Part shown: positions 3,821-57,431 of the stretch, one piece after another
Layout of the letters: every line of letters starts with the position of its first letter
Position numbering within the stretch: position 1 is the stretch's first letter
Assembly: GCA_021029095.1 (NCBI GenBank)
Contig: JAJOHG010000045.1
Span: forward strand, 186,001-250,000
Source: Phellopilus nigrolimitatus
Taxonomy: Eukaryota; Basidiomycota; Agaricomycetes; Hymenochaetales; Hymenochaetaceae
Direction: 5' to 3'
Length of the DNA stretch: 64,000 nt
The notes under the pieces: model-generated
What the model saw: only the letters and a program-made list of their open reading frames with translations
Databases searched by the model: none
Told to the model about the DNA's origin: nothing
Position numbers and translations under genes: made by a program

Positions 3821-3907
3821 TGCCTACGAGGATGATCGGCTAGCCCAACTCACGCCCCCGATCTTTCTAAGCTTTGTTGAAGACTTGACGACTGCAGACG
3901 CCTCACC

Positions 3908-16509: not shown

Positions 16510-16601
16510 TGCCTACGAGGACGTTTGGTTCGTCCAACATACGCCTCCGAACCGACCTTTCTAAGCTTCGTTGAAGACTTGACGACCGCAGACGCCTCAT
16601 C

Positions 16602-29262: not shown

Positions 29263-30700
29263 TGATCCCTTCTTGCCATCCGAGCCCGCATGTACTGCTA
29301 TGCCGTTCAGGACTCCGCGCCCGCACGACAGGGTTGCCTGTTTTCCTCCCTATGCGACGCCTCGCACGCGCAACAGGATCGAAGCTGCAATTATAAATAT
29401 AAAATCAACCTGCGCGGTTTCGCGTTCCCTGTCGGTAACGGTTCTCCCTTTTGACGCCTGCTGAGACGACCCTGATCACTGCAGGCAGGCACAGACGGAC
29501 GCCAGGCGCACGCAGACAGAACCCAATGCCCGAGAGCGGGTTCCCCGAGGCTTTGGCCTGGGATCGGCTTCTGAATCGAGCATCTTTCCCGCCGTTGATC
29601 CGAGTTTTCTATCGCCACGGCGTTCCAGGAGGACGCAGACCTAAGACGGGCGTAAAGAGAGAAGCAGTATGTACGAACTGAACCCGATGGCGCTGGACGG
29701 ACATCGTCAAGAACGACGAACGACGAGGATGCCGTCTCGGGCGGGAAAACGCGACGACCACGCGCTGAAGCCAGAAGGAGGGTGTTATATCCGCGGTGCA
29801 CACCCAGAAACTTGACACTCACCCATTAATCCGGTCCGGGCGCGCGCTGTCTTCATCCTCGGAAATAAACGCCAGCCGCGTTGAAAATCCACGAATATCG
29901 CGTCGGAGATGCCCTTCGCGCCCAGGGACGCTATAGCTAGCTGCCGCTGGCCCGCGCTTGCGCTGAAGTGCGTACCCCTCGCTGGTTTCGCCTCAGCGGC
30001 GCTCGCGCACGCGTGAGGCCTGGCTGGACACGTCCGCGCGCGCACCAGAAACGGAAAGGCCCGTCGGGATGGGGCATCGTGTAGCCCAACGCGCTCGAGG
30101 AAGTGGCTGGCGCCGTCGCTCCAAGCAGATGCATTCAAGGCCCTGCGGCAGTCCGGAATGCGTACGAGGATGCGCGCCACGCGGTGTCGAGAGCGCAAGA
30201 GACCGCCGGACATCCTGTGTCACCGGAGAAGTAAGAAAACAGACAGCAATGCAAATATCAAAGGCGCTTTCTCCGCGCGAGCAGAATGCATCGGGGCGCT
30301 GAGACGACGGGCTCGACACGGCTTTAGTAGCCGGTTGTCATTGCCGAGCCGGCTCGGACACCGTCTGCGCTGTGCCGCATCATCCTCGTTCTCCAGTACA
30401 TCGACATATGTATGCATCCGTTCGGCGACAGAATACGGTTGCTTCTCTTCCATGGTCCATGCAGGACGGGCGCTTCTTGATACGGCGGGCATCGGGAAAT
30501 GCGTCGGCGTCGGCGTCGCGGCGTCCTCCCACAGGCCCGTTTCTCCATACTCCTGCAGATGCGCGGTTCGTGTCCGCGAATAGCGTGTGCTCCTCCACAT
30601 ATGGCCTGAGACGAAGAGGCGGCTGAGAAGGTTCGCTGCCGCTGTGATCTACGTGGTTCTGCGGTTCCTAAGGGAGCGGGAGGCTTTCGCGCGCCGGAGG
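29263..30700 (-). repeat. Module P, reverse copy 1
   Basis: P landmarks appear in reverse complement and reverse order: CGCCACGGCGTTCCAG (29,615), the uninterrupted site GGTCCGGGCGCGCGCTGTCT (29,841), AAATAAACGCCAGCCGCGTTG, and CTCCACATATGGCCTGAG (about 30,594). The site at 29,841 is the equivalent of the retrotransposon target at 35,488. No gene. Confidence 0.65.
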
Positions 30701-31490: not shown

Positions 31491-31985
31491 TGCGGAGCGA
31501 TGGGCTGAGAAGGGGAAGGGGAAAGGGAAGGAGGCGGGTCCGCGTAAGCAGGAGGCGCACAGGTAGCGGCCGAGCGCACACTTGGAGCACCATCTCTCCG
31601 CCTTCACCATTGCTCTTCTCTCCATCTCTCACGCTAATAAGCTAAGCTTAGGTACACTCAACTCGCAACCACGAAGTACAAAGCGACTGCACGGTCGTTT
31701 CGCGCGGCCACTGTAACATATTATACCTCACTCTGAGCTTTGTGAAATGCAATCGATGATTCTGCCGGATCTGAACTGAATATGAACAGCGGACTCGTGT
31801 ACGCGCAAACGAATTTAGATTCTTCGCCCAGTGAAGATTTTACATTCTATAAGATACTGAATAAGAGTGCAAGAAGAGAAGGGGAATCTGGATGTCTACA
31901 TGTCTGCTAAATTAGCAATCAGTCTTGAGAAGAATCCGAGAAAGGCCAAGACAGGTGCATTCACCTTGGAATTCCATTTGCAAAA
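31491..31985 (-). repeat. 3' flank of DUF6533 copy E
   Basis: From about 31,650 it matches the 3' flanks of the other DUF6533 copies in reverse. The part before is a short junction without coding signal. Confidence 0.55.
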
Positions 31986-33617
31986 TCAGGTGAACCTCAT
32001 ATTGCTCATGGCCGTCATCCTGTAACTGGTCCCTCCATTGGCTCCCCTCTCTCCAGCTTCCTTCAGATGAATCAGCAGGTGACTCCCAAGGAGACAGAGA
32101 AGTTTGGGGTAAACCAAAACAGTCAGGAGATAGAATGAATTTGGTTTGAACAGCTTGTCTGCTATCATCCCCATAACACTGCAGAATATAACACTGTCAG
32201 ACCAATCAGCTCATAGTATACCACTGGTTGTACATTAAGAAAGCATACAAAACAAAGTAGATGGCCTGATCTTGGATGAGCACCATAAGAAGGTTAAACT
32301 GACTGAAACCAGCCACCTCCTTCCAGTATTGTGCAGCCTTGCGGAGAGCTAGAACCATTAGGATGATTGCATACACCATTGAAACAGCCCTGTTTTGAAT
32401 CAGTCCAAATCTTCACCTCAGGATGTCAGTACTAACCAATCTATTGCACCCCAAATGTTTGGGTTTCTATCAAGTAAACATACTGTTACACCTTCTGCAA
32501 GTCTCTTTACAGAAACTGGAACAATTGTTTAGCAAACTGTACAATCTACAATAAATAGTTTTGCTTACTCTCTGCATATATGATGCCGTATATCAGACCA
32601 CCCAGCCACAAGACTGCCTCCAGGCCGAAAAGAGTCCTCAGACATGCAGCAAGTTTCTTGTCTGTTGAATTATAAATATTAGCAGTGTTTTGTGGTACGA
32701 TGAGTGTCTTACTCTGGTGGTAGAGTGCCAGGACCCGCATCAGCAGAATATCTGTATGGCAGGTGAATATATTTTGCATAATATAAGTAGTAAGGGATGT
32801 CACTACAGTCAATTAAATTGACAGTCATCGAGTCTTCCTCAGAATAAGTAAAATGTTGTTTGTGAAATAATTGATAACTCACATAACAGACTATTAATCC
32901 AAAAAAGGCCAAGGCCTTTTCACTATCATCAGTAAAGAAACAATATAGATATCTAGACACTTACACCTATAAATGAGTCCACATTTTAGAGTTAGCTTCA
33001 ATGAGTTAAAATGCAGTGATCAGAGATTACTTGCAGTGTCTCATTTGCTTGAAGAGAAGCAACTTAGTATAAAAGACAGTATTAGCAGATATTTTTCTTT
33101 TTAATGCACTCCTATTAAAGATTCGAGTATGGCTCACATAATATACTAGAAACGACCCCAAGAATTCCAACATAGCGATTCTACAGGCATTCATTGCAAA
33201 AGATAGTCAGCTTACTCCCTTATAATAAGCTGTAAACTCTTTCTTACCGCAAAGTAAATCAAGCTGACAAATCTATAAGGAGTGCTCTTCATGCTACATG
33301 AGCAAACACATTATTCCTCACGTTAATGTTGTGAAAGCGACATACCCAGAAGTATTTTATCTTATACATATTGTAATTAGTCTAGACGTAGAGATAAGAA
33401 TGTCAAGCTTCGCTTACCTCCTTGTCCATTGTGATAACTGCGCGATCAATGTCATCCCAGGTACTGGAACACCCGTCAAGATGCAAAACTCACTGGTGTC
33501 GTAGACCAAGAGAGTTAAAATTGCCACTTGGTCGTACATAGTGATATCTGCCTCTGAGACCAGAAATGGCACTAGATTTGGATCAATAGGCTCGATGACA
33601 GAACGTGTTGAATTCAT
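31986..33617 (-). pseudogene. DUF6533-family gene, copy E
   Basis: ATG at 33,617 begins MNSTRSVIEPIDPNLVPFLV. The exon plan matches copies A-C: LLVYDT joined over GTGAGT-CGCAG to the MDKE block, then a block encoding IKYFW, FVSLIYFA, NRYVGILG, a QANET block, ILLMRVLALYHQ, KKLAACLRTLFGLEAVLWLG with VLIYGIIYAES-like sequence, a RVYAIILMVLAL helix and the C-terminal HLLIHLKEAGERGANGGTSY with its stop at 31,986. Copy-specific changes include a weakened site where A-C have the first conserved SPCK (here HSL). It may be transcribed but I could not confirm an unbroken spliced frame. Confidence 0.65.
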
Positions 33618-33708
33618 AGTGAAGCGTCTCGGTCGTCAAGTCTTCAACGAAGTTTAGAAAGGTCGGTTCGGGGGCGTATGTTGGGCTAGCCGAACGTCCT
33701 CGTAGGCA

Positions 33709-33715
33709 TTTTATA
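33709..33715 (-). promoter_or_regulatory. TATA box of DUF6533 copy E
   Basis: TATAAAA on the - strand within GCCGTTATAAAATGCCTACG, about 98 nt upstream of the ATG at 33,617. Confidence 0.7.
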
Positions 33716-34049
33716 ACGGCGAGCCGGTACGAATGCACATTTTCTGCTCGAAGTTTAGGCGATACATTATACCAATCAATCAAAGTCTGCGACATTGAAC
33801 GTCGGCAATCCTAAAACTCGGCTCAAGAACGCCCGATGTCCACGCACTAGCGAATGAGAAATGTAAATCAGACTGTCGCGCATAGCTTCATGATTTAGCT
33901 TGTGTTATAAAGAGCAGTTAACGTGCTTTTTCAATGGGAGAAGGTGTACGAATACCGCCAGAATTCAGACGATCAAATCGGGCATTGCGGCATACAAGAG
34001 TATGCTTCCCCAGTTGCGTGATTCAAGACAAATGTAAGGTGGTTTCATA

Positions 34050-34890
34050 CAAATGCAAGAGGAGAGATTACCGGATGTGAAAGAAAATGGTCCAATTGTA
34101 CTAGCTTATACGTATACTTAGACCAGCTGTCGTGATGAAGCATATTTGATGTTGATACAACCGAAGAACCGCGATGTTCGCGTCTGTGCATCGCAGTCCA
34201 ATTTTGGCTTTCAGACAGGCGCATTTTATTAGCTGTGACTCGAGGAAACAGGAGACCAGACTTACAAGACCTCCTAGATGATGCCGCTGATGTATTTACC
34301 AATGTTCGAAGCCTCAGAAAGTGTCGACCTGCCAGATACCCATGGCGAAGCCGACGATAACGCGATAGCACGAGGACGGCGCACGAAGTGAGAAGACTTT
34401 GACGCTAGGTAAGGAAGCAGGAGAAGGTACCGTCGAGCGCGTATCCGATGATGAGGTGTGACTGAAGCATGATTGGTATATCACTATGTGGCGTAAGACC
34501 CGTGTCCGTTCCGCCTGTCCGGAAGCTCGCCAAAACTGCTCGACGATGACACGCCCTCAGGATTGTTCACGAAATCACCGAGCGAAGGACACAGCCTTTC
34601 GGTGCGCTTTAGGCAGTACATACGATCCAAGAGAAGAGCGAGAATGTCAATCTCTCTTTCAAAATAAGCCTGCGAGCACAGATGCGTGAAATGAATCTGC
34701 GACTTGATGAGTTTTCATGCTGAAGAGTTCAAGAGGCCGCATGAGACCGAGGTAATCAAAATTGTATATTTCAAATCAGTGACGACGCTCGAACAGGGGT
34801 TTGGGAGAGCAGTCCTGTTTAAGTTGAGAAGAAAGAATGAGAGGCCGATGAGTTGCCTGTCGAGGCTAAGGTTGGTGTTGACGGCCTGAA
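34050..34890 (-). repeat. Module Q, reverse copy 1
   Basis: Q landmarks in reverse (TCGTCGAGCG; GAAGTGTCGACCTGCCAGAT region; CGAAATCACCGAGCG). It lies between the R and P modules exactly as in the left arm. Confidence 0.65.
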
Positions 34891-35491
34891 AGAAAAACGG
34901 CCTGAAAGGAAAGCAGCCCACCTGTATTGCTACATACTTCATAGGCCTTCGCGTGCACGTAGCAGGGCCGCCTGTTTTCCTGCCCCAGCGGCGCCTCGCA
35001 CGCGCAATGGGGTCGAGGATGCCAAAATATAAAAAATAAAAACATCTTGCGCGGTCGGACATTCCCTATCGGTAATGGTTCTCCCTCTTGATCGCCTTCT
35101 GCGACGACGCTGGCCACTGCGACAGGCACAGACGGTGCAGGAAAAGGCACACGCAGATAGAGCCCAATGCCCGAGAGCGGTTTCCCCGAGGCTTTGGCTT
35201 GGTGTCAGCTGCTGATTTGAGCGTCTTTCCCGCCGTTAATCTGAGCCGCATATCGCCACGGTATTCCAGAAGGACGCAGACCTAAAGGGCCGAAAGGGAG
35301 AAGCAGTATGGACGAACTGAGACTGTCCCATGGCGCTAAATGGATATCTTCAAGTTAGACGAGAGTGGCGGGAAAGCGCGACGACTACGCGGTCCCTCCC
35401 CGTGCGCTGAAGCCAGAAGGAGGGTTGAGGGTTATATCCGCAGTGTGCACCCCAGAAGCTTGACACTCACCCATTAATCCGGTCCGGGCGC
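34891..35491 (-). repeat. Module P, reverse copy 2, part 1 (split by retrotransposon)
   Basis: Ends at GGTCCGGGCGC, where the LTR element begins. It continues at 46,767 with GCGCGCATTGTCTTCATCCT, so the two halves form one interrupted P module. Confidence 0.8.
35488..35491. repeat. Target-site duplication GCGC (left)
   Basis: GCGC before the left LTR matches GCGC at 46,767-46,770 after the right LTR. The context is itself GC-repetitive, so the exact length is slightly uncertain. Confidence 0.65.
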
Positions 35492-36151
35492 TTTACGAGA
35501 CCCTTTCGGGCAAGTAGCGCAGACGGTCGAAGACAGCCCACAGGGTTCGGGGAATCTACGGTGCCTTGATCAAGAAGAGAGAAAAGCCGACAGGGGACTC
35601 AACACTGGGACGACGCGACGCTGACTCGCTCCCTCTCTATCGATGCTGTCGAGACGGCGATCCAGTGAGGTCGTGGTCGCGGACCGTTCGAGATAGACGA
35701 CGGTGTCGAGTAAGGTTCAGAAACGATGACGATGTCGAGAAACGGATCAAGCGTCGATCGCGAAGTCAAGAAGAGCGAACGAGAGATCGAGAAGAGAGAA
35801 GATGAGAAGTGTGTGTCAATCCTATTCAGTGTCGTAATCGCGAAGGGGGGACCCCCGTACAAAGATGCCTCTATCTCGACTAAATACTGAATCCCGTTTC
35901 TGTCTACGGTCCGTGCGCGATCCCAGTAAGGTAACTGAACAAAGAGTGCCCCGCGATGTCTCCGCGACTCGACTCATCATCCCTGTGTCATCCGCGTCGA
36001 TCCTCGGTCCTTCGTCCGCGTCCGCGATCGCGCTTGATCCTCTATCCGTGTCCGTACTCGTCCTCGATCCTCAATCCGTCTCTATGCTCAACCGCGATCC
36101 TGTACCCGTTCCGCGACGATATCGGAAGGTAGCCAGTGGTACACTGGTACA
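35492..36151 (-). repeat. 3' LTR, 660 bp
   Basis: Same length as the 5' LTR at an offset of 10,615. The differences I found are G at 36,096 and 36,118 against A at 46,711 and 46,733; both are CpG-to-CpA changes. The 80-residue frame beginning MIKKREKPTG occurs identically in both LTRs and is not a gene. Its element-3' end is CTCGTAAA rather than the usual CA. Confidence 0.9.
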
Positions 36152-36165
36152 CCTCCCCCTGACTT
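36152..36165 (-). other. Polypurine tract
   Basis: On the - strand AGTCAGGGGGAGG directly abuts the TGTACC start of the 3' LTR, the place where plus-strand synthesis is primed. Confidence 0.8.
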
Positions 36166-36220
36166 TGAAATAGTGACCATCCTTGGTCACTGCCGTGCGG
36201 GCGAGACGAGGGTGCGTGAT

Positions 36221-37165
36221 TTATTTGAGGTCGATGGTAATGTGGTCGCTGTTGGCAGGCGCGGGGTCGCGGGGAGGGGTAGGAGCGGGTGTGGCTTCCA
36301 CGTCGGTGTCATCCTCGTCGAGGGAGTCGTCGTAATCGTCCTCGTCGTGATTGTCGTCGAGTATGGAGACCCCGAGGATAGAGGGACCCGGGATGCGAAG
36401 GCCGGCATATTCCTCGAGCACGCGGAGGCGGCGGAAAATTTCTGAGGTCGCGACATTGGTAAACTCGGCGTCGAGAACGGCGCGTGGGTTATCTTCGATT
36501 CCGAGACGACGGTAGAGGGCTTCGACAACGTCGTCAACGCGGTCGAAACCGATTGCGGCGAGAGCGCAGTTGTGGCCGACCTCCTCGAGGAAGAGGCGAC
36601 GGAGCTCGTTCTGGGTATGGCGGAGTCGGTGGGGGCTAACGCGGGGTATAATCTGTGGATAGCGGTGGAAGAGCGCACTGATAAAGCTCCTCCATGGGTC
36701 ACGGGGATCAATGACAATGGAGAGCCATGTCGCGGAGAACGGGGGACCTGCGTAGTCGATCGCGAGCTGGATCATGGTGGTGTCGTCGACGCGGCTGAGG
36801 GTCGCGAACCACGCGGTCGAGATGAGGAACTCCGGAAGCGTAAGGGGTAAGCCAAGTGGAGAAGGTGCGTCGATCGCGCCGAAGATTGGAAGGGCGGGGG
36901 TGGGAATGGGAATGGGCCGGGGAAGCATGATGGTCGCGGAAGAGTTGAGATCGTCGAGTGCCGTAAGGGAAGGGGAAGATTTGGTCGCGGAGGGGATCGC
37001 GGGGTGTGCCGCGTCGCGTAGAGGTACTATACAGTTACCTGTGGCAGAGTCCGAGGTGGGATGATTGGCGAGGATCGGCGAGGGGGGCGGTTGATGGATC
37101 ACGGGAGTTGCCGAAGTGGGAGCGCGCGTGGAGCGAGTGTAGACAATGCGGTGGGGACTTAGCAA
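36221..37165 (-). CDS. Retrotransposon accessory ORF, gag-like
   Basis: The frame is open from about 37,197 to the TAA/TGA-bounded stop at 36,221. The first in-frame ATG is at 36,928 (MLPRPIPIPTPALPIFGAID), giving about 235 residues; a longer product would need splicing or a non-ATG start at 37,165. Core residues resemble the helical capsid part of Gag proteins: FLISTAWFATLSRV, TMIQLAIDYAGPPFSATWL, DPWRSFISALFHRYPQ, RRLFLEEVG. The tail is acidic and Pro-rich (DEDDYDDSLDEDDTDVEA). It has no zinc knuckle or protease. It lies where retroviruses carry extra genes, in the sense orientation of the element. The Gag relation is an inference from pattern, not an alignment. Confidence 0.6.
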   Translation of the reverse strand: MLSPHRIVYTRSTRAPTSATPVIHQPPPSPILANHPTSDSATGNCIVPLRDAAHPAIPSATKSSPSLTALDDLNSSATIMLPRPIPIPTPALPIFGAIDAPSPLGLPLTLPEFLISTAWFATLSRVDDTTMIQLAIDYAGPPFSATWLSIVIDPRDPWRSFISALFHRYPQIIPRVSPHRLRHTQNELRRLFLEEVGHNCALAAIGFDRVDDVVEALYRRLGIEDNPRAVLDAEFTNVATSEIFRRLRVLEEYAGLRIPGPSILGVSILDDNHDEDDYDDSLDEDDTDVEATPAPTPPRDPAPANSDHITIDLK

Positions 37166-37385
37166 TTTGAAAGTGATGTGGATGATGTAAGCGTGGATTG
37201 GTCAGGTGATGGGCCGGTGGGCCGGGGCCTGGAGTTTGCCGGACGGGATCAACTGAGTGGAGTCAAACTGGAAAAGCTTCCGTCGGATAGGGTCGAGTTA
37301 TGTAAAAGAAGCGTCGCGTGTGGCGGCATAATTTGCGCCCTTGGCGTTTAACGGCGACCAACCTTTTCTTTCTTCGACCACCACC
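37166..37385. promoter_or_regulatory. Probable divergent promoter inside the retrotransposon
   Basis: About 220 nt separate the start of the - strand gag-like ORF from the ATG of the + strand zinc-cluster gene. TAAAAG-type A/T-rich stretches occur at about 37,301-37,310. No canonical TATA box was confirmed, so the call rests on gene arrangement. Confidence 0.45.
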
Positions 37386-39127
37386 ATGGCCAGCGCACCC
37401 CCCGCAACGAAACTGGCCCCGAGCCAGGCGGCTCAGGACCTGCGCGCCAACCTACGGCGCGCGAGCGCGCGGCTGAAGGAGTCGCACGAGGCGTTCGACC
37501 CGGACGAGGTGGAGGCGGCTGTCCGCGGCGCGCGCGACGCGATGGTGAGTCCCGCGGTCGTTTTCGTGCAGGTAGTTGATTGACCGTGACTGTTTTATGT
37601 TGCAGTTACCTGTTTTTGCCGTGTTCGTGCGCGACAGGAACGGCGAGGAGCTGTTTGCGGAGGGCGAATTCGCCAACCTGGCCGCGGAGGCGAGGCCCGT
37701 CCGCGATGCGCTGCGTCGGGCGGAAGCGGCGTTCGACCGGATGCCCGCTGAGGCGTCCGAGCCCGAGGTGCGCGTGAAGGAGGAGCCGGAGACGCCGGAG
37801 GAGGTAAGTGCACGGCTGGCTGGGGTCGACGCAGCTAACGTGACGTTTTTAGGTAATGTCGAAGGTTCGCTCGACCGCGGGGTCGAGCGCGAAACCAGGT
37901 CCGGGATCGGCGGCGGTGTCAGGACGCAAGCGCAGCGCGTCGTCGTCACCGGACCGCGACGCGCGAGGAGTCAAGCGCGTGGCGACGGACCTGGCTGTCG
38001 ACGGCCGCGACGCAGGTGCCCCCGCGACGGGCGGGGGCGAGAAGACAGCACCCCCCGCTACGGGCGGGGAGGAGAAGACGGCAGACCCCGCGACGGGCGG
38101 GGTCAAGAAGACGGCGGCCCCCGCGACGGGCGGGGACACAAAGTCGGCGGCGACGGACCGATGGCCGCGTGCACGCACGCAGGTCGAGGTTCTCGTGCCA
38201 CCGGTAAGTCGCCATGTTACCATGCGCATTCGTGCTGATCGTCTGAAGTTGGCCCAGGCCGAGGCAGACAAGGTCCGCCAGGCGGGCGGGGACGCGATCG
38301 CGGTCGCGGCGGCGTGGGAGGCCGCCGAGTCGGACCTCGCGTCCTTGCGCGACGAGGACGCAGATGCGGCTGGCGAGGCGGACGTCGTTGGCGACGACGG
38401 GACTGGCGGCGGCCCGCGCCTTAGCGACCGGGAGATCGAGGGGTGCCTGCGCGCGATGGACACGCGCGTCGTCTGCGATGCCTGCCTCCGCGAGGGCACG
38501 CGATGCAAGCACGCGATGGGCAAGGTCTGCCAGGCCTGCAAGGACAGGGGCGGGGCGTGCGCGGTCGACGGGTTCCGGACGTCGCCAATCTCGGCGAAAC
38601 GGCTGGGACCGGAGATCGCGAAGCCCAAGCCGAAGGCCAAGACGACCCGGCGCGGTGCGGCGGCGAAGGACGAGGAATGGGACGACGCGGAGGGGCGGGG
38701 TACCCAGGGAAAGGGGAAGGGCCGCCTGGCGTCGAGGGTGAAGGCGGAACCGGCGGTGAAGGAAGAGAAGCGGCAGCCGCGTCCGCGCGCGGCGCGTGGG
38801 ACATGGGGCGGATCGCGGGCGCTACCGCCCTCGTCGGATGTGGGGTCGCCGGTCGCGGGCCCATCGCAGGTGGTGAGGTCGAGCGTGGTGTCGGATTGGC
38901 CAACCCCTCGCTACGACCCCGTGTCCGTGGAGAGCGACCTCGCGGCCGCCGAGGACGCTTTCCACCGTGTGGCGGTGACGACGCGGACGGCGGCGGACGC
39001 GATGGGCGCCTTCATCCGCGTGGCCGTGCAAGCGGAGGACACGCTGCGCGCCGTTAGCCGCGTGGCGGAGAATGCGGAGGAGCGGTTGGCGGTGTTGAGG
39101 ACGAATGTGTTCGTCGCGGACCCGTGA
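37386..39127 (+). CDS. Antisense Zn(II)2Cys6 zinc-cluster protein inside the retrotransposon
   Basis: Spliced gene on the strand opposite gag-pol. The start is ATG 37,386 in strong context (CCACCATGG). Exons: 37,386-37,544; 37,606-37,803; 37,853-38,203; 38,258-39,127. The first two introns (GTGAGT-TGCAG, 61 nt; GTAAGT-TTTAG, 49 nt) are required by frame; the third (GTAAGT-CCCAG, 54 nt, CTGAT branch) is in frame and probable. Predicted product about 525 residues. C309, C312, C319, C327, C330 and C337 form CX2CX6CX7CX2CX6C, a fungal Zn(II)2Cys6 cluster, here mid-protein rather than N-terminal. Before it are four 11-residue repeats (PATGGxxKTA, about 38,018-38,152); after it come basic Lys/Arg/Pro stretches and a helical C-terminus (DAFHRVAVTTRTAADAMGAF). 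DNA binding is plausible. A regulatory role on the element is speculation. Confidence 0.8.
38018..38152 (+). repeat. 33-bp tandem repeat in the zinc-cluster gene
   Basis: Four in-frame units of about 33 bp encode APATGGGEKTA, PPATGGEEKTA, DPATGGVKKTA and APATGGDTKSA. The unit length keeps the frame, as in unstable linker repeats. Confidence 0.8.
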
Positions 39128-39405
39128 GGTTTTTCGGTTTTGTTTTCTGTCTCGGTGTGTTTTCTTGGTCGCGCGTCGTGTTTTTTAGATATAATACGCT
39201 TGCGTAATGTAATATAATACGCGCTTTCTCGTGTTTGTGTGAAGGACGTGTGTTGCGGGGGTGGGTGAGGATCGAGACCTTGCCCGCGATGTGTGTTCGT
39301 GAGTGTCGAGCAGATCTTCGACCAGGGAAACGTCTTCATGGTATAAGCGAAGTGTATTGAGTGAGACTTATGGAGACAATTGGGACTACAGGGGTTGCTT
39401 TCTGT
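39128..39405. terminator. Convergent 3' ends of pol and the zinc-cluster gene
   Basis: A 278-nt AT-richer gap lies between the two stop codons (39,127 on + and 39,406 on -). ATATAATACG-type and TAATATAATA stretches at about 39,188-39,220 could serve as polyadenylation elements. No specific signal is proven. Confidence 0.35.
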
Positions 39406-42400
39406 CTAATCACCATGCTCGTCCATCCAGTCTGCCGCGATGTCAGGCCGGTCCTCCGCGATGTCGTCCGGTGTGTTAGCGATCTCGTCTAGGTCGCGGT
39501 TTGTCCGCTGGACGTGTTGGGTAAGCGGAACCGTGAGCTGGGATCGCGGGTGGTACGGAATGACACGGAATGCCGCGAAGCGGTTTCTGTACAGTGAGCC
39601 GTCCATATCCGCGAGGATGTATGAGCCACCTTTGGTGCGGCGAGCGACGACAAGAGGTCCGAGGTAACGGTGCTTGGTCTTACGATTGAGCTCCTTCTCG
39701 ACGCGTGTGTTCCGTGCTAGGACGAGGGCACCGGGCTCGAAGTTGTACTCCTTGATCGAGTGCTCGTATTCAGATCGAAAGCGGTGTGCGGCTTTGAATC
39801 GTGATGCGAGTACGCGATCATGTGCTATTGCGAGATCTTCGGAGCGACGTTGGAGGTCCTTGGCATGTCTGGCTAGAAGCTCGATATGCAAGATGGTGCG
39901 GTCGAGAGTCGGGGACATGTATGTCGCTTCAATAAGGTCGAGGGGAAGCGTGGGCTCCACTCCGTGCATAAGGTAGTATGGTGAGTATCCAGATGACGCT
40001 TTAATCGTGACTCGATCCGACCAGAAGGCGTATGCCGCGACTGCTGGCCACTTGCTATCGTCGCCTTTGCAGAGCTTCATGATGACTTCGCGAATATCAC
40101 GGTGGGATCGCTCGACGATGCCGTTCGCTTGAGAGTTGTACGGGGATATCGCGATATGGTGTCCGATGTGGCGCGCGATCTTCGTGACGGCGGGCTCGAA
40201 TGCGGACCCGTTGTCCGTGACGACGTCGATAAAGGGACCATGCCGGCAGACGATCTCGTCGAAGAGGAAGTTCTGGATAGCCTTCGCGCTCTCGTTACGC
40301 AGAAGACGAAACTCGGGCCAGCCGGATAGGGAGCAGCGCGCTTGAATGATGTACTGGAATCCGGCCGCTTTGGGCATGTGCATGATGTCGACATGAATGC
40401 GGCGAAACAGACCGGCTGGGGGCGGGATCGAGGGAGGGATGTGTAGGCGTTTCGTTTGTCGGACTTGACACTCGTGACAAGAAGTCAGGAACCACTTGAT
40501 GTCGCGGTCCATGAATGGCCACCAGAAGCGGTCGTGGATCCTGATCCGCACGGAGAAGAAGCCGCGGTGTCCAATATCGTCATGCGAAGCCTCCATGATG
40601 CGGAAGCGCCGCGAAGCGTCCGGGACTTGTTGAGGGCGGTTCTTGCGGTTCTTTCGCCAGAAGAGATCCTTGTCGACAAAGAATTGCGCTGCGGCTCGAA
40701 CGAAGGCCCGCAGCTTCGCTTCGTCGCCCTTTAGATGCGCGGGCGGTTCGCTCGTGGTCAAGAATTTGCGGAATAGTTCGAGATGCGCATCGCGACGTTG
40801 TGCCTTCGAGGATCGCGGTATTGCAGGCGATGCTTTCTCGACCGTAGCGGACGTCGCGAGGAACCCGTACTGCTCGTCGATCCAGTCCTCGTACTCTGTG
40901 TCGGGTGGGGGGTCCTCCGGTGCTGAAGGCCGTCTTGACACGCCATCCGCGCCTGAGTGCCGTTCCCCTGGGACGTGTACGAGCTTGAAGTTGAATAATA
41001 AGATGCCCGCGACCCAGCGGTTGATGGTAGCGTTCGGGAGGAGGTCGCGGTTGTTGATCATGCCGCTGATGTACTTCGCGTCGACCTCTACCACTAGGTA
41101 TGGGAAACCGATGATGTAGAGTCGCGCTGCGCGGAGAGCTCGAAAGAGGCCAAAGAGCTCGGCCTTCGGTTGGGAGTAGTTCCGTTCGCGCTCGTTCCAG
41201 CAACCTGAGATAAAGCGCGATACGAAGCGTTCTCCCTTTTCTCCGAGCTGGAGGATGATGCAGCCGAAACCGATGTTCGAAGAGTCGACCGCGAGTATGA
41301 TGGGACGGGTGCATTGATAGTCGATCGGTTTCAGCGCGGGGCAGTTCATGACGGTTTCCTTGACCCGTTGGAAGCACTCGATCTGTTCCGGGCCGAAAAT
41401 GAAGTCAATGTTTTTGTTGAGGAGGACAGTGATCGGTTTCGTGAGTCGCGCGTAGTCCTTGATGAAGATACGAAGCACGCCGCATGTCCCTAGGAATTGG
41501 CGAACCTCTGAGACGTTACGCGGCTCAGGCCAGTCGCGGATACACTGGACACGGGAATCATCTGCGACGCGTCCGTCGTATGTGCATGTGTGTCCAACGA
41601 TGACTCCGGAAGGTGCGCAGAGCGTGATCTTCTTTCCTGATAGGGTCGCGCCGACGTTCTTGAGTCTCTGGAGAATGCGGTTGACGACGAGGAGGTGTTC
41701 GTAGATGAAACGACGGATCCCTGGGTTACCTTCCATTACCTCGTACGTACCGTCTTCGCGCTCGTATCGGGTTTCTGGGCCTTTCACGGGAATGTCGTCA
41801 ATGAATGGGACCGTATGTCCCGGGATTTCGTCGCGGAGAATGAACGTGACGTCGCCATGCATAGTCTGCTGTGAGTTCGTCCACCCCATAGGGATCGCTG
41901 TGATACGGAAGGTCCCAAGTGGTGTCTGGAACGTAGTGAGATCCCGAGAGTCCTCATGCAGCTTCCGTTGGTCGAATGCGACGAAGAGGTCGAAGATGGT
42001 GTAGCAGGCGCGACCGCCGAAGGACTCCGCTAGCGTGTCGACGCTGGGTGGAACTGCGGGATCGCGGATTGAAACCGCGTTCAGTGGTTGGAGGTCGTGT
42101 ACAATTCGAAGGGACGTCCCGTCTTTCTTGACGACGCAAAACCATCTCGATCGGTAAGAGGAGTTCGAGGGCTCGTACACACCAGAGCTGATTTTATCCT
42201 TGATGATCGCGATGACTTTGTCGAAGATGCCTGGAGGGATGGGGATGACGCGCAGTGCCCACGGGATGTGCTCGATAGTCGGAATGAGCACCGGTGGGAA
42301 GTACTCTTGATCGAGGGACCCCTTCTCGCTTTCGTCCCAGGCGAACGCAAATTCCTGGATACGGATGAGCTCGAGCGAGAGCTTCACCTCGTCTGGCAAC

Positions 42401-43022
42401 AAGAAATCCGTCCCCTCGAGGGCGGATTTGAGGGAATTATACCGTTCTTGGGTGAAGCGCGTTCCGGGGACGAAGTCAGGAGGATGCAGAGGGATCTCTG
42501 GGAGGTCGCGGAGAGGGTCGGGGAACTCGTGGCGGATGATGCGGAATTTTTCGGGGAGGGTCGTCTGTACTGGTTTGACGCGGTCCGCGACCTTCTTGTA
42601 CGCAAGGCTGGTCGCGTGGGTGTCACGGGCGAAGTCTAAGGGTATATTGCGATCGAGGGCGGTGACGGGTTTTTGGGAGGAGATAGAGACGGAGGAGATA
42701 GAGACGAGATTAGCGTGGAGAGCCGCGGGTATCTGAGTTGGAGGCGAAGTGGGTTTCGTGTATTTTCTGGTTTTCTTCGGGGTTTTGCGGGATTGCGAGT
42801 GTTTATGTTGTTTTGATGGGTTAACTGTGAAAGCGGATGGAGACGGAGCGAAGGGATCAAAAGTAGAAACCGCGATCGAGTCGTGGTCGCAAAAGACATA
42901 AGCTTGATTGAAGAAAAATGGTGACGCCGCGACATCGTCGCTGAAGGAATGGAGTGAGCGGGGTATCGGTTTGGGTGGTGGGCCTCCCCGTCGTGACGGC
43001 GGTTCCTCGACCTTCAGGTAAA
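39406..43022 (-). CDS. Pol: reverse transcriptase, RNase H, integrase (by -1 frameshift from gag)
   Basis: The frame is open from about 43,131 to the TAG at 39,406; translation would enter by -1 slippage at 43,020-43,026, adding 1,204 residues to Gag (about 2,014 in all). Numbering from 42,402: RT with FCVVKKDGTSLRIVHDLQPL and the FIDD active site at 200-203; RNase H with D373, E415, D441 and D486 (AVDSS, KAEL, EVDAK, SGADG); integrase zinc finger H607, H612, C642, C645 and catalytic D672, D730, E764 (VDIMHM, TDNGSAF, GIVERSH). The C-terminus has the GPLVVARRTKGGSYIL-type GPY/F-like module and no chromodomain. All catalytic residues are present and no stop interrupts. There is no ATG near the frame start, supporting frameshift expression. 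Confidence 0.93.
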
Positions 43023-45449
43023 ACCCGAGGTGAAGCTGGCGAAGGCGCCATTCGCGTTGGAGCGAGTCGTGGTTGGGATCACGAAGCGCTCGAACGTCTC
43101 TGGGTCCGTGATCGTAAGGATTTGGCGACCGTCAGTGTCGAAGTTCGTTTGGCAACATGTGTGCGCATAGAACGGGATCCCTAGTAAAACCTCGAATGGC
43201 GCCTGTTCGACTACGTGCGCGTTCATCGCGATGGTGAGGTCGCCGATCTTGATTTCGAGGCCTGAGATAAGTCCGAGCGAGGTGACGACGGTGCTGTCGG
43301 CCGTGGTTACGCGAATACGCATGTCCGGACGTAGCGGGGTTCCGGTTCGTTCCCAGATATCGCGGCGTAGGCAAATAAACGTCGACCCGGTGTCAAGGAT
43401 GGCGGTAGCGACACAGACGCCTGCCAAGAGGACTTTGATCGCGCTGATTTCTTTGAGGTGAGGGTCGTTCTCTGGCGTGACCGCGATCTCAAGCGGTCTG
43501 TTCGCGCCGGGGTGCGCGAAGAGGCTGGAGCCATCCGTGACTGGTTTGGAGGTGATGGTCCCCTGCTCGATCTCGTCCTGGGTCTGCTGGAGCGAGCTCG
43601 ACACTCCCTTTTCTTGAACGAGAGCCTGGGCGCGCGGCAATTGTTGTGCTCGCGACGGGGTCGTGATCGTGGTGGGGATGCGTCTCGTAGTGACCGCGTC
43701 GCGGACGACCTTGCGGCAATCTTGAGCGACCGAGAGGAGTTCGCGGACGGTGGCGGGTACAGACGCGTCGAGAATGCGATTTACGAGCTCCTTCGGTATC
43801 GATGCGTTCTCGACTGGGGCTTGGTATCTGTACTGAGGCCCAGAGTCTGGAGGTAGTGGGATCGCGTCTGGTGGTCGAGCATGCTCGTCTATGTCGTCCT
43901 CCAGCTCGTCCGTTTCCTCTTCTTCGTCACTGTGTTCAGTTACGGAAGCCTCGACGCTCGCGGCGCGTTGCGGGGTAGGAGGTGCCGCGGGCCCGGGAGA
44001 TACCGGGCGAACGACCGAGAGCGGCGTGAGAGCCCTTGATTCCTGTGAGGACGGAGGCGGGGTCGGAGCCCGCGATCGCGCAGGTGGCGACGGTGACGGG
44101 GTACGAGACGACGCCGGCTGCGCGGTGGTCGCAGGACGGCGCGGCATGGGGTCGACGTCGAATCGAACACGTTTCGCACTTTCAGGGAGGCGAGTGGTCG
44201 ACCGGGTGCTTACTAGTGTTGTCTCTGATCCCTGGTCCTCATCCGTTACGTCCTCGATGTACGCGGCCCTCGATGTTTTATCTTCCGCTCCGGTAGACCA
44301 CAACGCGGTTCCGAAGCTGAAGTTTGCGCTTGCTGACGGCATGTGCGGCGGGCCGGTAGCCCTGTCGCCTACTTTGAAGTCTGGGTTCGCGGCTTTCCAG
44401 TATCGCAGTTTTTCTTCAAACGAGAAGCCGGGCTGCTCGCGACTGAAGAGGACTCCGTTCGGTAGAGTGAGCTGGTTGTTGGCATCGCGCAAGATCTCGC
44501 CGCGTCGCAGAGCTTCGTTTGCTCCTGGACAAACGAGGAGGAAATGTTCTGGATCGGTGCACCACATGCACACGCGACGTCGAGTCGGGAAGGCTTCGCC
44601 GACGGGCGCAGGTGGCACGTAGGGGGCGGGTACGTAAGGGGCTGTCGGTCGAGCCGTGTTCTGGCCCGGTGTGGACGGCGTTGGCGTTCTCTGCATCGCG
44701 ACGAGTTGCGACTGTAGAGATTCCAACTGTCGAGTCATCGCGGTCCATGCCTCGCCCTCCTGTTTCACAAGGACAGGGGCCGGTGCAGGAGCGGGAGTCC
44801 GCGCGTTGGATACGGATGCTGTGGCCTTCGCGACCCCGGCGTATCCGCGCTTAAGGATGTCGTCGCACAACGTGAAAACCTCCTGCATCGGGTAGGTCGA
44901 GTCGGGGCTGTGCGTGTCGTCTTTAATGAGCTTGCGTAGGTTCATCTCTTCACGTAGCGATCCCTTGATGCCCTCAAGGAAGCCGCGGTTGACGTCAAGA
45001 TCACTGAAGATCGACTGTGACTTGAGGTACGCGGATACGAGTGAGAACTCCCGGAAGTACTTGCTTAGCGAGCCTCTGTCCGTGTGACCGCTTGCTGGCT
45101 GCGCGTTGATGATGCGTCGAGCGTCGCGGACAGTGAACGTAGGTTCCGCCCCTGGGTAGAGTGTGAGGACTGCTTCGCGGAAGGGCGTCCATAGATTCCC
45201 GGTCGCGGCTGGGAGTGACTTCCACGTGAAGCCTTCGCGACCAGCGTACAGGCAAGCGCATTCGATAGCATCAGGGTCCGTGATGTTGTTTCGGCGACCG
45301 AGATTCTCGATCACGTTGAAGAAGTGTGGAATGCTCTCCTCGTCCTCCGGGAACGTGGGGGCTCGGCGATCCCCAGTAAGAGGCATGTCGCCTGGGTCGA
45401 CGCCGACGACTGGCGTAAAGAATGGTGCTGGGGGCGGTGGTTGTGCCAT
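43014..45449 (-). CDS. Gag polyprotein with CCHC knuckle and retropepsin
   Basis: ATG 45,449 (context GCCATGG) opens 811 residues. Residues about 35-205 form a helical capsid-like domain (PTFPEDEESIPHFFNVIENL; LWTPFREAVLTLYPGAEPTF; YFREFSLVSAYLKS). C294, C297, H302 and C307 make a CX2CX4HX4C zinc knuckle for RNA binding. A long Pro/Ser/acidic linker follows. Near the end the aspartic protease has ILDTGST (D686) and the later FEVLLGIPFY block, so the protease is encoded in the gag frame rather than in pol. The sequence ends SGFT with TGA at 43,014-43,016, immediately after the slippery heptamer. The 657-nt leader between it and the 5' LTR contains no gene. Confidence 0.9.
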   Translation of the reverse strand: MAQPPPPAPFFTPVVGVDPGDMPLTGDRRAPTFPEDEESIPHFFNVIENLGRRNNITDPDAIECACLYAGREGFTWKSLPAATGNLWTPFREAVLTLYPGAEPTFTVRDARRIINAQPASGHTDRGSLSKYFREFSLVSAYLKSQSIFSDLDVNRGFLEGIKGSLREEMNLRKLIKDDTHSPDSTYPMQEVFTLCDDILKRGYAGVAKATASVSNARTPAPAPAPVLVKQEGEAWTAMTRQLESLQSQLVAMQRTPTPSTPGQNTARPTAPYVPAPYVPPAPVGEAFPTRRRVCMWCTDPEHFLLVCPGANEALRRGEILRDANNQLTLPNGVLFSREQPGFSFEEKLRYWKAANPDFKVGDRATGPPHMPSASANFSFGTALWSTGAEDKTSRAAYIEDVTDEDQGSETTLVSTRSTTRLPESAKRVRFDVDPMPRRPATTAQPASSRTPSPSPPARSRAPTPPPSSQESRALTPLSVVRPVSPGPAAPPTPQRAASVEASVTEHSDEEEETDELEDDIDEHARPPDAIPLPPDSGPQYRYQAPVENASIPKELVNRILDASVPATVRELLSVAQDCRKVVRDAVTTRRIPTTITTPSRAQQLPRAQALVQEKGVSSSLQQTQDEIEQGTITSKPVTDGSSLFAHPGANRPLEIAVTPENDPHLKEISAIKVLLAGVCVATAILDTGSTFICLRRDIWERTGTPLRPDMRIRVTTADSTVVTSLGLISGLEIKIGDLTIAMNAHVVEQAPFEVLLGIPFYAHTCCQTNFDTDGRQILTITDPETFERFVIPTTTRSNANGAFASFTSGFT
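43020..43026 (-). promoter_or_regulatory. Candidate -1 programmed frameshift heptamer GGGTTTT
   Basis: In the gag frame the codons are TCG GGT TTT ACC TGA; the heptamer G GGT TTT fits X XXY YYZ. Slippage yields GGG TTT TAC CTG in the pol frame, two codons before the gag stop. The pol frame is open upstream only to a stop at about 43,134, so the overlap is about 115 nt. The downstream GC-rich region contains CCGTCACGACGG, which could help pausing. Confidence 0.65.
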
Positions 45450-46089
45450 GGCGACGACGGGTCGAATAGGCGCGATCGGATGCGGGGTCGGTCGTGATCG
45501 TGGAGGTGGAGTCGGGGACGGCGAGCGGGCGGAGAAGCGTAACGGCGCTGGAGTGGAGGCGACAGGCGGTGTGTAAAAGATAGATCGCGAAGATGCGGCA
45601 AGCCGATCGAGAGGAGTGAGGGGGCTGTCTGAGAAGAGGTCCAGGCGGCCGCGGTCTATCGAGAAGCTCTGGAGGCTGTTCGATATCTGTGAGATCGGCG
45701 ATAAAGACGCGGCGTGTGTCCTATCTATATGTCGAGGGGATTGCGACCGTCGTGGCGAAGGTCGTGTTCAGTGTGTCGTACGTCCTCGATCTTGGGAGCG
45801 TGACTGAGATCGCGACCTCGATCGTCGTTGGCGCTCTCGTCGCAGACGTCGTTCTTCTCGAGTGGTCGATGGGTGGATGCTGAGCTCTCTTTGAAAGGGT
45901 CCGGTCGACGGCGACCGCGGCGTCCCTCGTCGTCCGACTGTCCCTTGTGACACTGATGGTGCGCGGTCTGGATCGTCGAGCGCGTCGCGGAGCGCTCCTA
46001 ATAGATTACGGCCTTCGCGCGGCAGGGCGAAATCGTGATCGCAGTCGTTTGGCGTGTCGAGTCTTGGTCAGCTAGACACTTTGAAACCC
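45450..46089 (-). other. Retrotransposon 5' untranslated leader
   Basis: Sequence between the candidate primer site and the gag ATG. It contains many CGATCGCGA-like Arg/Ser-coding runs on both strands but no supported gene; a packaging signal would be expected here but cannot be recognised by eye. Confidence 0.5.
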
Positions 46090-46106
46090 CCGCGGTTGGT
46101 TCCAGG
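46090..46106 (-). other. Candidate primer-binding site
   Basis: Directly inside the 5' LTR the - strand reads CCTGGAACCAACCGCGG. TGG two bases in would pair with a tRNA CCA end. The tRNA was not identified. Confidence 0.4.
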
Positions 46107-46766
46107 TTTACGAGACCCTTTCGGGCAAGTAGCGCAGACGGTCGAAGACAGCCCACAGGGTTCGGGGAATCTACGGTGCCTTGATCAAGAAGAGAGAAAA
46201 GCCGACAGGGGACTCAACACTGGGACGACGCGACGCTGACTCGCTCCCTCTCTATCGATGCTGTCGAGACGGCGATCCAGTGAGGTCGTGGTCGCGGACC
46301 GTTCGAGATAGACGACGGTGTCGAGTAAGGTTCAGAAACGATGACGATGTCGAGAAACGGATCAAGCGTCGATCGCGAAGTCAAGAAGAGCGAACGAGAG
46401 ATCGAGAAGAGAGAAGATGAGAAGTGTGTGTCAATCCTATTCAGTGTCGTAATCGCGAAGGGGGGACCCCCGTACAAAGATGCCTCTATCTCGACTAAAT
46501 ACTGAATCCCGTTTCTGTCTACGGTCCGTGCGCGATCCCAGTAAGGTAACTGAACAAAGAGTGCCCCGCGATGTCTCCGCGACTCGACTCATCATCCCTG
46601 TGTCATCCGCGTCGATCCTCGGTCCTTCGTCCGCGTCCGCGATCGCGCTTGATCCTCTATCCGTGTCCGTACTCGTCCTCGATCCTCAATCCGTCTCTAT
46701 GCTCAACCGCAATCCTGTACCCGTTCCGCGACAATATCGGAAGGTAGCCAGTGGTACACTGGTACA
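46107..46766 (-). repeat. 5' LTR, 660 bp
   Basis: Partner of 35,492-36,151. It begins TGTACC on the - strand at 46,766 and is followed outside by GCGC (46,767-46,770). It holds the A variants at both sites where the LTRs differ. Confidence 0.9.
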
Positions 46767-47690
46767 GCGCGCATTGTCTTCATCCTCGAAAATAAACGCC
46801 AGCCGCGTCGAAAATCCACGAATGTCGCGTCGGAGACGCCCTCCCCGCCCAGGGGGCGCTATAACTAGCTGCCGTCGGTCCGCAGCCGAGCTGAGGCGCG
46901 TCCCTCTCCGTCTTCACACCCTCCGCGGTGCCAGTGCGGCCCGCCGTGCACGCAAATGGGCTCGCGTTCGTACCGCGCAGCCGATGAACAGATTTTCACG
47001 ACCAGTACAGCCTGCACACGCCCTACTGCCCCTGTGAGCCGTCTCCCGTGCGCCCAGCGAGGCCGCCTGTCCCCGCACCTCGCGCACGCATGCGGCCGAG
47101 CCTGCCAAAATAAACTAAAGCACGCGATCAGGCACGTCCGTGCCAGCGATGGGCACTATTGAGACAGAGCCTCCGGCGCGACGTGGCGGGCGGAATTGCC
47201 CCAAGCAGATGCGTTCAAGGCGCTACGGTGGTCCGGAATGCGTACGAGGACGCCGTCGAGAACACAATGTTTCGCTTGCGGCCGCCGGACAGTTCGTATC
47301 GCTGGAGAAGTATGGGCGCTTGCTGGTCGCAGAGTGCATCAGACGACGAGCTCGACTGTTTAGTAGCCGGCTGCCAACTTCAAGTCGCCGACCATCCTCC
47401 GGCTGTGCGTCCAGCACGGTCAAGCAGACAACATCGTTCCTCGGCGACAGAATACTTCGCTTCCGGTCCACGCAGGACGAGCGCGCTTCTTGATACGGCG
47501 GGCATTAGGCAGTGCGTCCGCATTGTGACGTTCCTTCCGCAGGGCCGTTTGTTTGGCTCCTGCAAACGCGCGGTAGGCTGGCCGGGTCGTGTCCGCGAAT
47601 AGCATGCGCGCCTCCACATATGCTCTGAGCTGGAGAGGCAGCTGCTGAGAAGGTTCGCTTCCGCTGTGATCTACGTGGTCGCTGCGGTTC
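46767..47690 (-). repeat. Module P, reverse copy 2, part 2
   Basis: Continues the P module interrupted at 35,491: GCATTGTCTTCATCC, AAATAAACGCCAGCCGCGTC, and later CTGCCAACTTCAAGTCGCCG and CTCCACATATGCTCTGAGCT. No gene. Confidence 0.7.
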
Positions 47691-56600: not shown

Positions 56601-57431
56601 GCGCGTCTTTTACACGATCGGGTTTTACTGAACAGAGCGCTCGACGTACGTAGGATCGTCTTGTCTCAAGACTCCCAGTGTTACGACGCGTTGTTCCACA
56701 CTATCGACGACATGTCTGTGCGTACGCAAACTTTCCTATGCTGCACACAATCTCATGTTTAGACAGCGCGAAACGTTCCCGGCCATAGTTTAGATGATCG
56801 CTCGAAAGCATACGCGAAGACACAGTGTGGGAACTGGGCACTGTGCTCCCTTGCGATCCTCTGGACAGGTGTGCCACTTTCCTCAGCATGTGGACTCGTG
56901 CCCGAGGGCGCGTTGGTCCTGGCACACGGATACATACCACTTGGAGGCACATACGAGTAGCCACACTTTCTCTTCGTCTTTCCTCTTTTCGTTTTCCTCC
57001 GTCACTGATGCTTGCGAACTATTTCGGCCGCCGTGCGTACGAATCCGCAAACTCAGCTCATCGTGCTGCAAGAACGTGATGGGGCGCAAGGCGTCTGAGC
57101 GACCATTGTGTACTCTCACTGTATCGTGTTATCTCACTGAGTTGTACGAACATTTTATATGCAATCGATATTTGTGCTGAATCCGAACAGAGCATGGACA
57201 TTGAATTCGTGTACGTGCAAACAAATCAGTATTTCCTTTATCAGCGAAGACTCAACATTATAGGACATTTAAAACAAGTACACGAAGAAAATGCAAACGT
57301 AAACGAAAGCTAGGATAGTAGTGCAGACGCATACGGATGTCCTACGAGTCTGGTGAATGATCAATCAGTCCCGAGCAGAATCCAAGAAAGGCCGAGACTG
57401 GTGCAATCACCTTGGAATTCTCTTTGCAAAT
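56601..57431 (-). repeat. 3' flank region of DUF6533 copy F
   Basis: From 57,050 on it matches the 3' flanks of the other DUF6533 copies in reverse. 56,700-56,960 matches 18,680-18,900 weakly. No gene. Confidence 0.5.

Follow-up and report, generated by a model that had tools for sequence, protein, structure and literature searches.

A young Ty3/Gypsy element of Phellopilus nigrolimitatus with a conserved cassette of a Gag-like gene and an intron-containing antisense gene encoding a zinc-cluster-like module

Genes carried on the antisense strand are known from several retroelements. In the plant Retand lineage of Ty3/Gypsy elements, an antisense ORF encodes TRP28 (PF04195); its description mentions neither "intron" nor "zinc", and the sense ORFs in the same region are without known domains. 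HBZ, an antisense gene at the 3' end of HTLV-1, encodes a spliced bZIP regulator. Antisense genes under 3' LTR promoters are described in the available part of PMC10186651. According to the available part of PMC7264820, maize Grande (gene23) and rice RIRE2 have a gene in antisense in the interval that separates pol from the 3' LTR; the gene23 protein is nuclear and its gene is under its own promoter, and no zinc cluster is described there for either element. Among fungi, the Boty and BcGypsy1 elements of the ascomycetes Botrytis and Sclerotinia carry one extra antisense gene, brtn (available parts of PMC7264820 and PMC8365987).

The element characterized here comes from the basidiomycete Phellopilus nigrolimitatus and was found in a 64,000 nt stretch of contig JAJOHG010000045.1 (positions 186,001 to 250,000; hereafter the window). 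Two genes are located between its pol gene and its 3' LTR: a sense Gag-like gene (gagL) and a divergent antisense gene. The latter is placed like those of Grande and RIRE2 and is, like brtn, a single antisense addition, these elements being likened to ours by description. It shares with HBZ a position at the 3' end of a retroelement, but HBZ is driven from the 3' LTR, belongs to an infectious retrovirus and is an unrelated protein. A Pfam scan of exon 1, exon 2 and the region 37853-39127 gave no PF04195 match at E up to 1, and the sense ORF, in contrast to those of Retand, is a Gag paralogue. A literature search (few subscription papers covered; PMC8365987 and PMC5408684 included in part) turned up no Gypsy element of a basidiomycete with a zinc gene in antisense. 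An earlier note on this DNA knew of no standard gypsy annotation with this layout. Plant elements and the fungal Boty have antisense genes in the same place, so the kind is known; the pairing of a divergent Gag paralogue with a spliced gene of zinc-cluster-like type is a new form of it.

The element is a recent insertion at 35492-46766 of the window, read from the minus strand. Its 660 bp LTRs (5' LTR, 46107..46766; 3' LTR, 35492..36151) differ by two mismatches, which lie at window positions 36096 and 36118 within the 3' LTR. A short target-site duplication of 4 bp, GCGC, is present at both flanks (35488..35491 and 46767-46770), as judged from the junctions and from an unoccupied paralogous repeat at 29803-29980. 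The gag and protease ORF (43014..45767, minus strand, stop to stop) has Pfam matches to DUF4100 and an aspartyl protease, and a CX2CX4HX4C knuckle can be read directly from it. The pol ORF (39406..43131, minus strand, stop to stop) encodes, in the Ty3/Gypsy order, reverse transcriptase (RVT_1 match just below its Pfam cut-off), RNase H and integrase (H2C2). The LTR pair, the target duplication and these domains bear out the gypsy element that the earlier note had proposed.

The antisense gene consists of four plus-strand exons encoding a product of 525 aa: exon 1 (37386..37544, 159 nt), exon 2 (37606..37803, 198 nt), exon 3 (37853..38203), with an RKR motif and an array of in-frame 33 bp tandem repeats (37987..38148) whose number varies among copies, and exon 4 (38258..39127), with a six-cysteine cluster and a C-terminal module. 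In the window, the introns are 61, 49 and 54 nt in length; two are required by the reading frame, and the length of the third is divisible by three. The product length, the ends of both genes (39127 on the plus strand and 36221 on the minus strand) and the presence of at least two frame-required introns all agree with the earlier note. The gene is more than a chance arrangement: every copy that reaches exon 1 (12 of 12) has 159 nt there, and all 11 copies of exon 2 measure 198 nt, whereas the introns vary in length (intron 1, 61 or 62 nt; intron 2, 48, 49 or 50 nt). These copies are not independent, representing about three subfamilies. The splice signals of intron 3 are kept in the eight aligned copies, and its counterpart in a family-2 gene model (52 nt, or 82 nt in an alternative model) is frame-required both ways. 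A change in intron 3 length in copy C614 was not used as evidence because exon 3 of that copy is itself out of frame. Across exon 4, the coding frame contains no stops in three subfamilies, compared with 1-9 in each of the other five frames. A 353-aa minus-strand frame (37849-38910) opposite exons 3 and 4 was rejected as a gene because the minus frames over exon 4 hold 1-4 stops each per subfamily (three subfamilies). The exon 3-4 region had no match at E up to 0.001 in a large protein collection (best 7991 candidates scored), a result with little bearing on other fungi.

Many copies of the element are present in the P. nigrolimitatus genome (a lower bound, as the best candidates were scored). 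Of the 13 family-1 loci listed with a pol end, 12 have all or part of the antisense gene opposite pol, as do all five loci of a second family whose pol is 74-78% identical; an antisense ORF is thus present in most family copies among the best 37 of 168 candidates scored. C278, C291, C417, C598, C401 and C67, not listed with a pol end, are outside the count of 13. C598, whose DNA matches the pol end, would add another locus that lacks the antisense gene (12 of 14); it shares with C112:3473 a junction that removes this gene, and gagL contains stops in both. Among 13 stretches examined, the antisense gene is broken, cut or outside the stretch in six (C19, C614, C278, C291, C90 and C417) and is without a start in a seventh (C45). 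Recurrence across two families argues against the one-off capture that the earlier note had considered.

Among the family-2 genes modelled, a four-exon model was obtained for C179 gene A only. This gene has three phase-0 introns (63, 52 and 52 nt), RKRAAS in exon 3 and the cluster in exon 4, the same plan as the window gene. Exon modelling gave it two solutions differing in the third donor (514 or 504 aa) and C179 gene B none; when phase-0 introns alone were allowed, C179 gene A had six solutions and C616 gene B two, neither of the latter containing three introns, and C179 gene B and C616 gene A yielded no solution. An hhalign comparison of family-1 and family-2 proteins found the cluster at a score of 36.5, whereas 40 shuffles reached 22.8 at most. 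In three loci of a third family whose pol is 38-49% identical (C179:247997, C609:72207 and C625:643195), pol is adjoined by an antisense ORF that is unrelated. This ORF was not counted in support of the cassette because its divergence between C179 and C123 (dN 0.053, dS 0.107, with 19 of 25 differences being transitions) leaves constraint unclear.

The gagL gene (36221..36928, minus strand, stop codon included) encodes a Gag-like protein of 235 aa with an acidic tail and without a zinc knuckle. The inner Met at 36928 is the most likely start, because the frame upstream of it varies among copies. From this Met, the frame is open in 12 of the 13 family-1 stretches examined, the C45 stretch not including the gene. 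An hhalign comparison with the element's own Gag gave an E-value of 1.1e-4 over 88 columns, with a probability of only 57%, and a Gag query picked up two family-2 gagL proteins (E 0.0014-0.0015). On this sequence homology, gagL is classed as a diverged Gag paralogue, in line with the Gag-like label of the earlier note. Its predicted structure is all-helical (mean pLDDT 61) with no clear fold match; the model of Gag itself was too poor for use. In a large protein collection, the gagL ORF had no match at E up to 0.001 (5874 candidates scored, with little bearing on other fungi) and the gagL profile found one protein, from P. nigrolimitatus itself (best 7995 candidates scored). Viral contigs scanned with the gagL profile, pol and an antisense exon yielded no relatives. 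The earlier note described the antisense gene as lying opposite the Gag-like ORF; the two are indeed divergent, but they are neighbours that do not overlap, 457 bp apart. The region between them (36929..37385) is the presumed promoter of both, and its identity among subfamilies is compatible with either presence or absence of constraint.

The six-cysteine cluster (38474..38560, plus strand) reads directly as CX2CX6CX7CX2CX6C. The Zn(II)2Cys6 consensus spacing of fungal Gal4-type regulators is CX2CX6CX5-12CX2CX6-8C, with which the window and C231 types agree; all six cysteines and their spacing are kept in the C231 and C45 types, and the second gap is longer in family-2 C179 gene B. Against the Pfam Zn_clus profile (PF00172), the gathering score of 21 bits was reached by none: the window segment scored 13.0 bits, C231 16.8 bits and two family-2 genes 17.5 and 17.1 bits (over half of the profile each), with no match for two further family-2 segments. 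A sub-threshold match recurs in five of the seven segments, four of six among those from elements, and spans the cluster in the window and C231. The spacing given in the earlier note stands, while "Zn(II)2Cys6" is to be read as a likeness because of the sub-threshold score. Further differences from Gal4-type regulators are the weakly basic loop between the second and third cysteines (direct read) and the position of the cluster in mid-protein. Pfam found no other regulator domains in the antisense protein.

For dN/dS, only copies open in the compared part were used. Between subfamilies, gagL gave values of 0.12, 0.08 and 0.04 and antisense exons 1-2 gave 0.32, 0.33 and 0.36, contrary to the neutral decay in all relatives that the earlier note had allowed for. 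Between the close copies C614 and C278, gagL has three nonsynonymous changes and no synonymous ones. In the window versus C45 comparison, the C-terminal module has dN 0.01-0.03 and dS 0.16-0.44, while the zinc segment has dN 0.47-0.73 and dS 0.47-0.94 with the six cysteines unchanged. Exon 4 as a whole has dN/dS of 0.56-0.84, therefore little constraint is indicated on the zinc segment beyond its cysteines. These sequence comparisons point to purifying selection between subfamilies on gagL, on exons 1-2 and on the C-terminal module (window versus C45), and to exon 4 as a mosaic in which lineages have exchanged zinc and C-terminal modules, the six cysteines being fixed throughout.

We interpret the locus as a young Ty3/Gypsy element with a conserved two-gene cassette, whose antisense protein is probably a nuclear nucleic-acid-binding regulator of the element. 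Since sister elements keep the same arrangement, the antisense gene is suggested to serve the element. An internal promoter in the 457 bp divergent region would drive it, and its transcript would be spliced. The predicted product, of low complexity, contains an RKR stretch resembling an NLS, the zinc-cluster-like module and the C-terminal module; it may bind zinc and enter the nucleus, where it would most likely act in trans on the element's own expression or silencing. The earlier note had considered action on the LTR or on host promoters; Zn(II)2Cys6 clusters bind two zinc ions and CGG-type DNA, and CGG half-sites are not enriched in the LTR or the divergent region, which speaks against the regulator reading. 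The product of gagL would probably meet Gag in the particle. As the earlier note had reasoned, the antisense introns are expected to outlast copying because they sit in the genomic RNA in an orientation wrong for splicing; all three are present in this recent insertion. More tentatively, the two genes could form a control cassette with a divergent promoter, in which the antisense spliced zinc-cluster regulator has recombination-swapped DNA-reading and partner-binding modules and the Gag paralogue, acting like a brake on copy number, modulates particle assembly; one regulator copy, beside a chaperonin gene, may have been domesticated by the host.

The antisense protein could instead be a partner of the particle or pre-integration complex, involved in nuclear import, nucleic-acid chaperoning or target choice, and not a transcription regulator. 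The Gag paralogue that usually accompanies the antisense gene and the weakly basic loop would fit this role, as would the absence of CGG pair enrichment in the LTR, divergent region, 3' region and gag leader (136-200 of 200 shuffles matched the observed counts). We consider it a doubtful though credible explanation, as import, chaperone and target-choice roles are normally served by Gag and Pol from the sense strand, and placement in a gene of its own on the antisense strand points to control with a different timing. Such roles are suggested for the plant relatives in the available part of PMC7264820, where roles of antisense transcripts in plant and insect elements are also discussed. The antisense gene is in the right place and on the right strand to act as RNA, its transcript overlapping the 3' end of the genomic RNA and tuning copy number by interference or double-stranded RNA, with the protein secondary. 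This is compatible with a protein regulator but improbable as the main role: an RNA alone would need neither the constraint seen at the protein level nor exons of constant length next to introns that vary, nor the fixed cysteines, and the coding region as modelled stops 278 bp before pol. It is quite improbable that the gene is a host gene captured once by an ancestor and hitch-hiking without use to the element, since it occurs in two families of diverged pol with exons 1-2 dN/dS below 0.4 and low dN in the C-terminal module, and what speaks for a passenger is that two derivatives have dispensed with it and that a homologue adjoins a chaperonin (TCP-1) gene (L049, L051), in 7 kb that show no nucleotide match to the element of the window; this homologue may equally well be a domesticated or relic copy.

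The antisense protein, as a probable regulator of its element, offers a basidiomycete case that joins a zinc-cluster-like module to a conserved plan of exons; selection on it can be measured, its modules have been exchanged between lineages and a homologue exists outside elements, and its function is therefore testable. The element also indicates that an intron-bearing gene can travel in a retrotransposon without losing its introns simply by being in the opposite orientation.

In Phellopilus nigrolimitatus, a wood-decaying basidiomycete of the Hymenochaetales, the window carries a Ty3/Gypsy element on the minus strand (35492-46766), bounded by LTRs of 660 bp each (35492-36151 and 46107-46766) with two mismatches between them. 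GCGC is found at both element junctions, and the insertion lies inside an older repeat, an unoccupied paralogue of which is present at 29803-29980. The gag-protease (43014-45767) and pol (39406-43131) frames are open; across them DUF4100, aspartyl protease, RNase H and integrase H2C2 exceed the Pfam cut-offs, while RVT_1 in pol falls slightly under its own (29.0 vs. 29.6 bits). The window also contains at least five copies, on both strands, of a repeat of approximately 2-3 kb that is roughly 75-82% identical among copies (2557-5895, 9634-12934, 15978-18666, 31886-34888 and 57086-60259).

Between pol and the 3' LTR lies a plus-strand gene of 525 aa with four exons (37386-37544, 37606-37803, 37853-38203 and 38258-39127). 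Its start was reached in 12 of 13 family-1 (window-type) stretches, six of which remain open to a full-length stop; these products are 525-593 aa in length, mainly owing to 33-bp repeats in exon 3. In the other six, the gene is frame-broken, cut or runs out of the stretch. Among copies that represent about three subfamilies and are not independent, exon 1 is 159 nt (12/12) and exon 2 is 198 nt (11/11 having them), intron 1 is 61 nt (window) or 62 nt, intron 2 is 48, 49 or 50 nt, and intron 3 is 54 nt (55 nt in contig C614).

Divergent from this antisense gene is a sense-strand Gag-like gene, gagL, of 235 aa (Met at 36928 to stop at 36221). The frame upstream of this Met varies among copies, and annotated protein P0001 begins at the equivalent Met. 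Twelve of the 13 family-1 stretches have this frame of 235 aa open (the thirteenth, from C45, does not include the gene), and the window protein is 96-97% identical to three other aligned family-1 copies. Alignment of gagL with the element's own Gag using hhalign covered 88 columns (E-value: 1.1e-4, probability 57%). Searching with Gag recovered two family-2 gagL proteins (27% identity, E-values: 0.0014-0.0015). On direct reading, gagL lacks the zinc knuckle present in Gag and has a C-terminal acidic tail. A gagL profile gave one match in the protein collection (best 7995 scored), a P. nigrolimitatus protein whose N-terminal part is exactly the gagL of C616.

The genome searched comprises 56.4 Mb in 635 contigs, and the window corresponds to C390:186001-250000. 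Among the best 37 of 168 pol-end candidates scored, at least 13 family-1 loci were identified (C390, C90, C614, C87, C112 at 1.64 Mb, C19, C45, C231, C9, C64, C168, C18 and C112 at 4 kb). In 12 of these 13, the antisense gene is present, whole or in part, on the strand opposite to pol. The C112 locus at 4 kb (3473-4836) and C598 (65493-66268), whose pol end is known by DNA match alone, share a junction (window 36828 to 39343) at which the antisense gene is deleted and a decayed gagL is fused to the pol end. Ten of the 13 have gagL farther along, on the pol strand (decayed in C112 at 4 kb, approximately 6 kb farther from pol in C90); it is absent from C45, C168 and C18, in the last case because the contig ends. 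Two regions appear as nested or split copies: C90 at 80-88 kb, where approximately 6 kb separates the two cassette parts, and C19 at 78-87 kb, where a family-1 gag lies near a family-2 pol. C272 and C415 carry a gagL/antisense pair without pol, likewise on opposite strands.

In a second family, with pol 74-78% identical, all five loci (C630, C19 at 83536, C556, C179 and C616) have an antisense six-cysteine gene, approximately 9.5 kb from pol on C556, and C179 and C616 have two such ORFs each. Its gagL, 41-42% identical (three copies aligned), is on the pol strand in C179, C616 and C556 (18 kb from pol in the last); it was not found at the C19 locus, and the C630 locus is at a contig edge. The model for C179 gene A (514 aa) follows the family-1 plan: three phase-0 introns (63, 52 and 52 nt), with exon 3 encoding RKRAAS and exon 4 the cluster. 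An alternative model with a different third donor gives 504 aa. In the six-cysteine ORF of C179 gene B, the second gap is longer. Exon modelling of the other three family-2 genes produced no equivalent four-exon model. Elements with approximately 81-83% identical LTRs occur on C291, C1, C312 (stretches L028-L030) and C224, where the gagL search matches the last 35 residues only; arrays of a repeat resembling the 33-bp repeat lie near L028-L030. Elements of the L028-L030/C224 type may be derivatives without pol. Elements of a third Gypsy family, whose pol is about 38-49% identical, have an antisense ORF directly after pol that is unrelated (MSSPVTLLDSI...; L034:3498-3995, plus strand; L035:493-990, minus strand); it is present at C609 too, and C55 and C123 carry additional copies.

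The earlier note had read the antisense product as a Zn(II)2Cys6 protein. Pfam searches of the exon 3-4 region at E-values up to 1 gave no match, and exons 1 and 2 gave only sub-threshold matches to unrelated families (best HalX, 16.5 vs. 23.2 bits). In segments cut out for comparison, PF00172 (Zn_clus) was found below its cut-off of 21 bits in five of seven (13.0-17.5 bits), one of the five being a homologue outside the elements; the match spans the cluster in the window and C231 segments only. Because these scores are under the cut-off, the protein is not filed as a PF00172 member; by its cysteine pattern it resembles zinc-cluster proteins. The family-1 and family-2 clusters align with an hhalign score of 36.5 (at most 22.8 in 40 shuffles). 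Over the 29 residues of the cluster, the C231 type agrees with the window type at 5 of 23 non-cysteine positions and at all six cysteines, identically spaced (hand count); the chance of agreement at all six is approximately 0.001 under position shuffling (hand calculation).

The dN/dS ratios of gagL are 0.12 (window vs. C614), 0.08 (window vs. C231) and 0.04 (C614 vs. C231); C231 and C64 show no change, and C614 and C278 differ by three nonsynonymous and no synonymous changes. Ratios are 0.32, 0.33 and 0.36 for antisense exons 1-2, and 0.14 (window vs. C45), 0.12 (window vs. C231) and 0.61 (C45 vs. C231, resting on three differences) for the pol C-terminus. Exon 4 gives overall values of 0.56, 0.78 and 0.84, with 0.74 for C231 vs. 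C64 (three differences). These high values are explained by a mosaic at C45 seen in sliding windows: its zinc half is close to the C231 type (dN 0.00-0.03) and its C-terminal part to the window type (dN 0.01-0.08, dS 0.16-0.44), and each diverges strongly from the opposite type (dN reaching 1.07). This pattern indicates that modules have been swapped between element lineages.

A six-cysteine relative is found on C265 (L049) and C268 (L051:2630-4200), with similar surroundings, RKR upstream and SPLSVKR downstream. The two are 99.95% identical over 2 kb and are perhaps two assemblies of one locus. A chaperonin (TCP-1) gene lies directly downstream, and a 68-bp piece of TCP-1 is duplicated nearby at 84% identity. 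Nucleotide comparison of the surrounding 7 kb with the window found nothing at an E-value of 1e-4, and none of the matches listed for gagL, pol or Gag falls there. This homologue may have arisen by domestication of a copy, or it may be a relic or the source.

The proximal 220 bp of the 457-bp divergent region (36929-37385) is 90% identical to C231 and C614, compared with 68.5% and 83.1% at four-fold sites of exons 1-2 and 85.9% and 89.9% at gagL four-fold sites; conservation of the region is equivocal on these comparisons. CGG pairs showed no enrichment in the four regions tested, which counts against a Gal4-like mode.

In 97% of Retand clusters, the elements possess a TRP28 ORF in antisense orientation; DNA binding is predicted for it, and tandem repeats occur in about half (PMC11963269). 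The Phellopilus cassette is from a basidiomycete, and its antisense gene is zinc-cluster-like, divergent from a Gag paralogue and predicted to be spliced; no report of such a cassette was found in the literature searched, a mainly open-access collection. In this genome the antisense gene is conserved, codes for protein and is usually accompanied by a Gag paralogue, and its introns are present in a recent insertion. The divergent region would drive expression, and the antisense protein would be nuclear, bind zinc and regulate the element.
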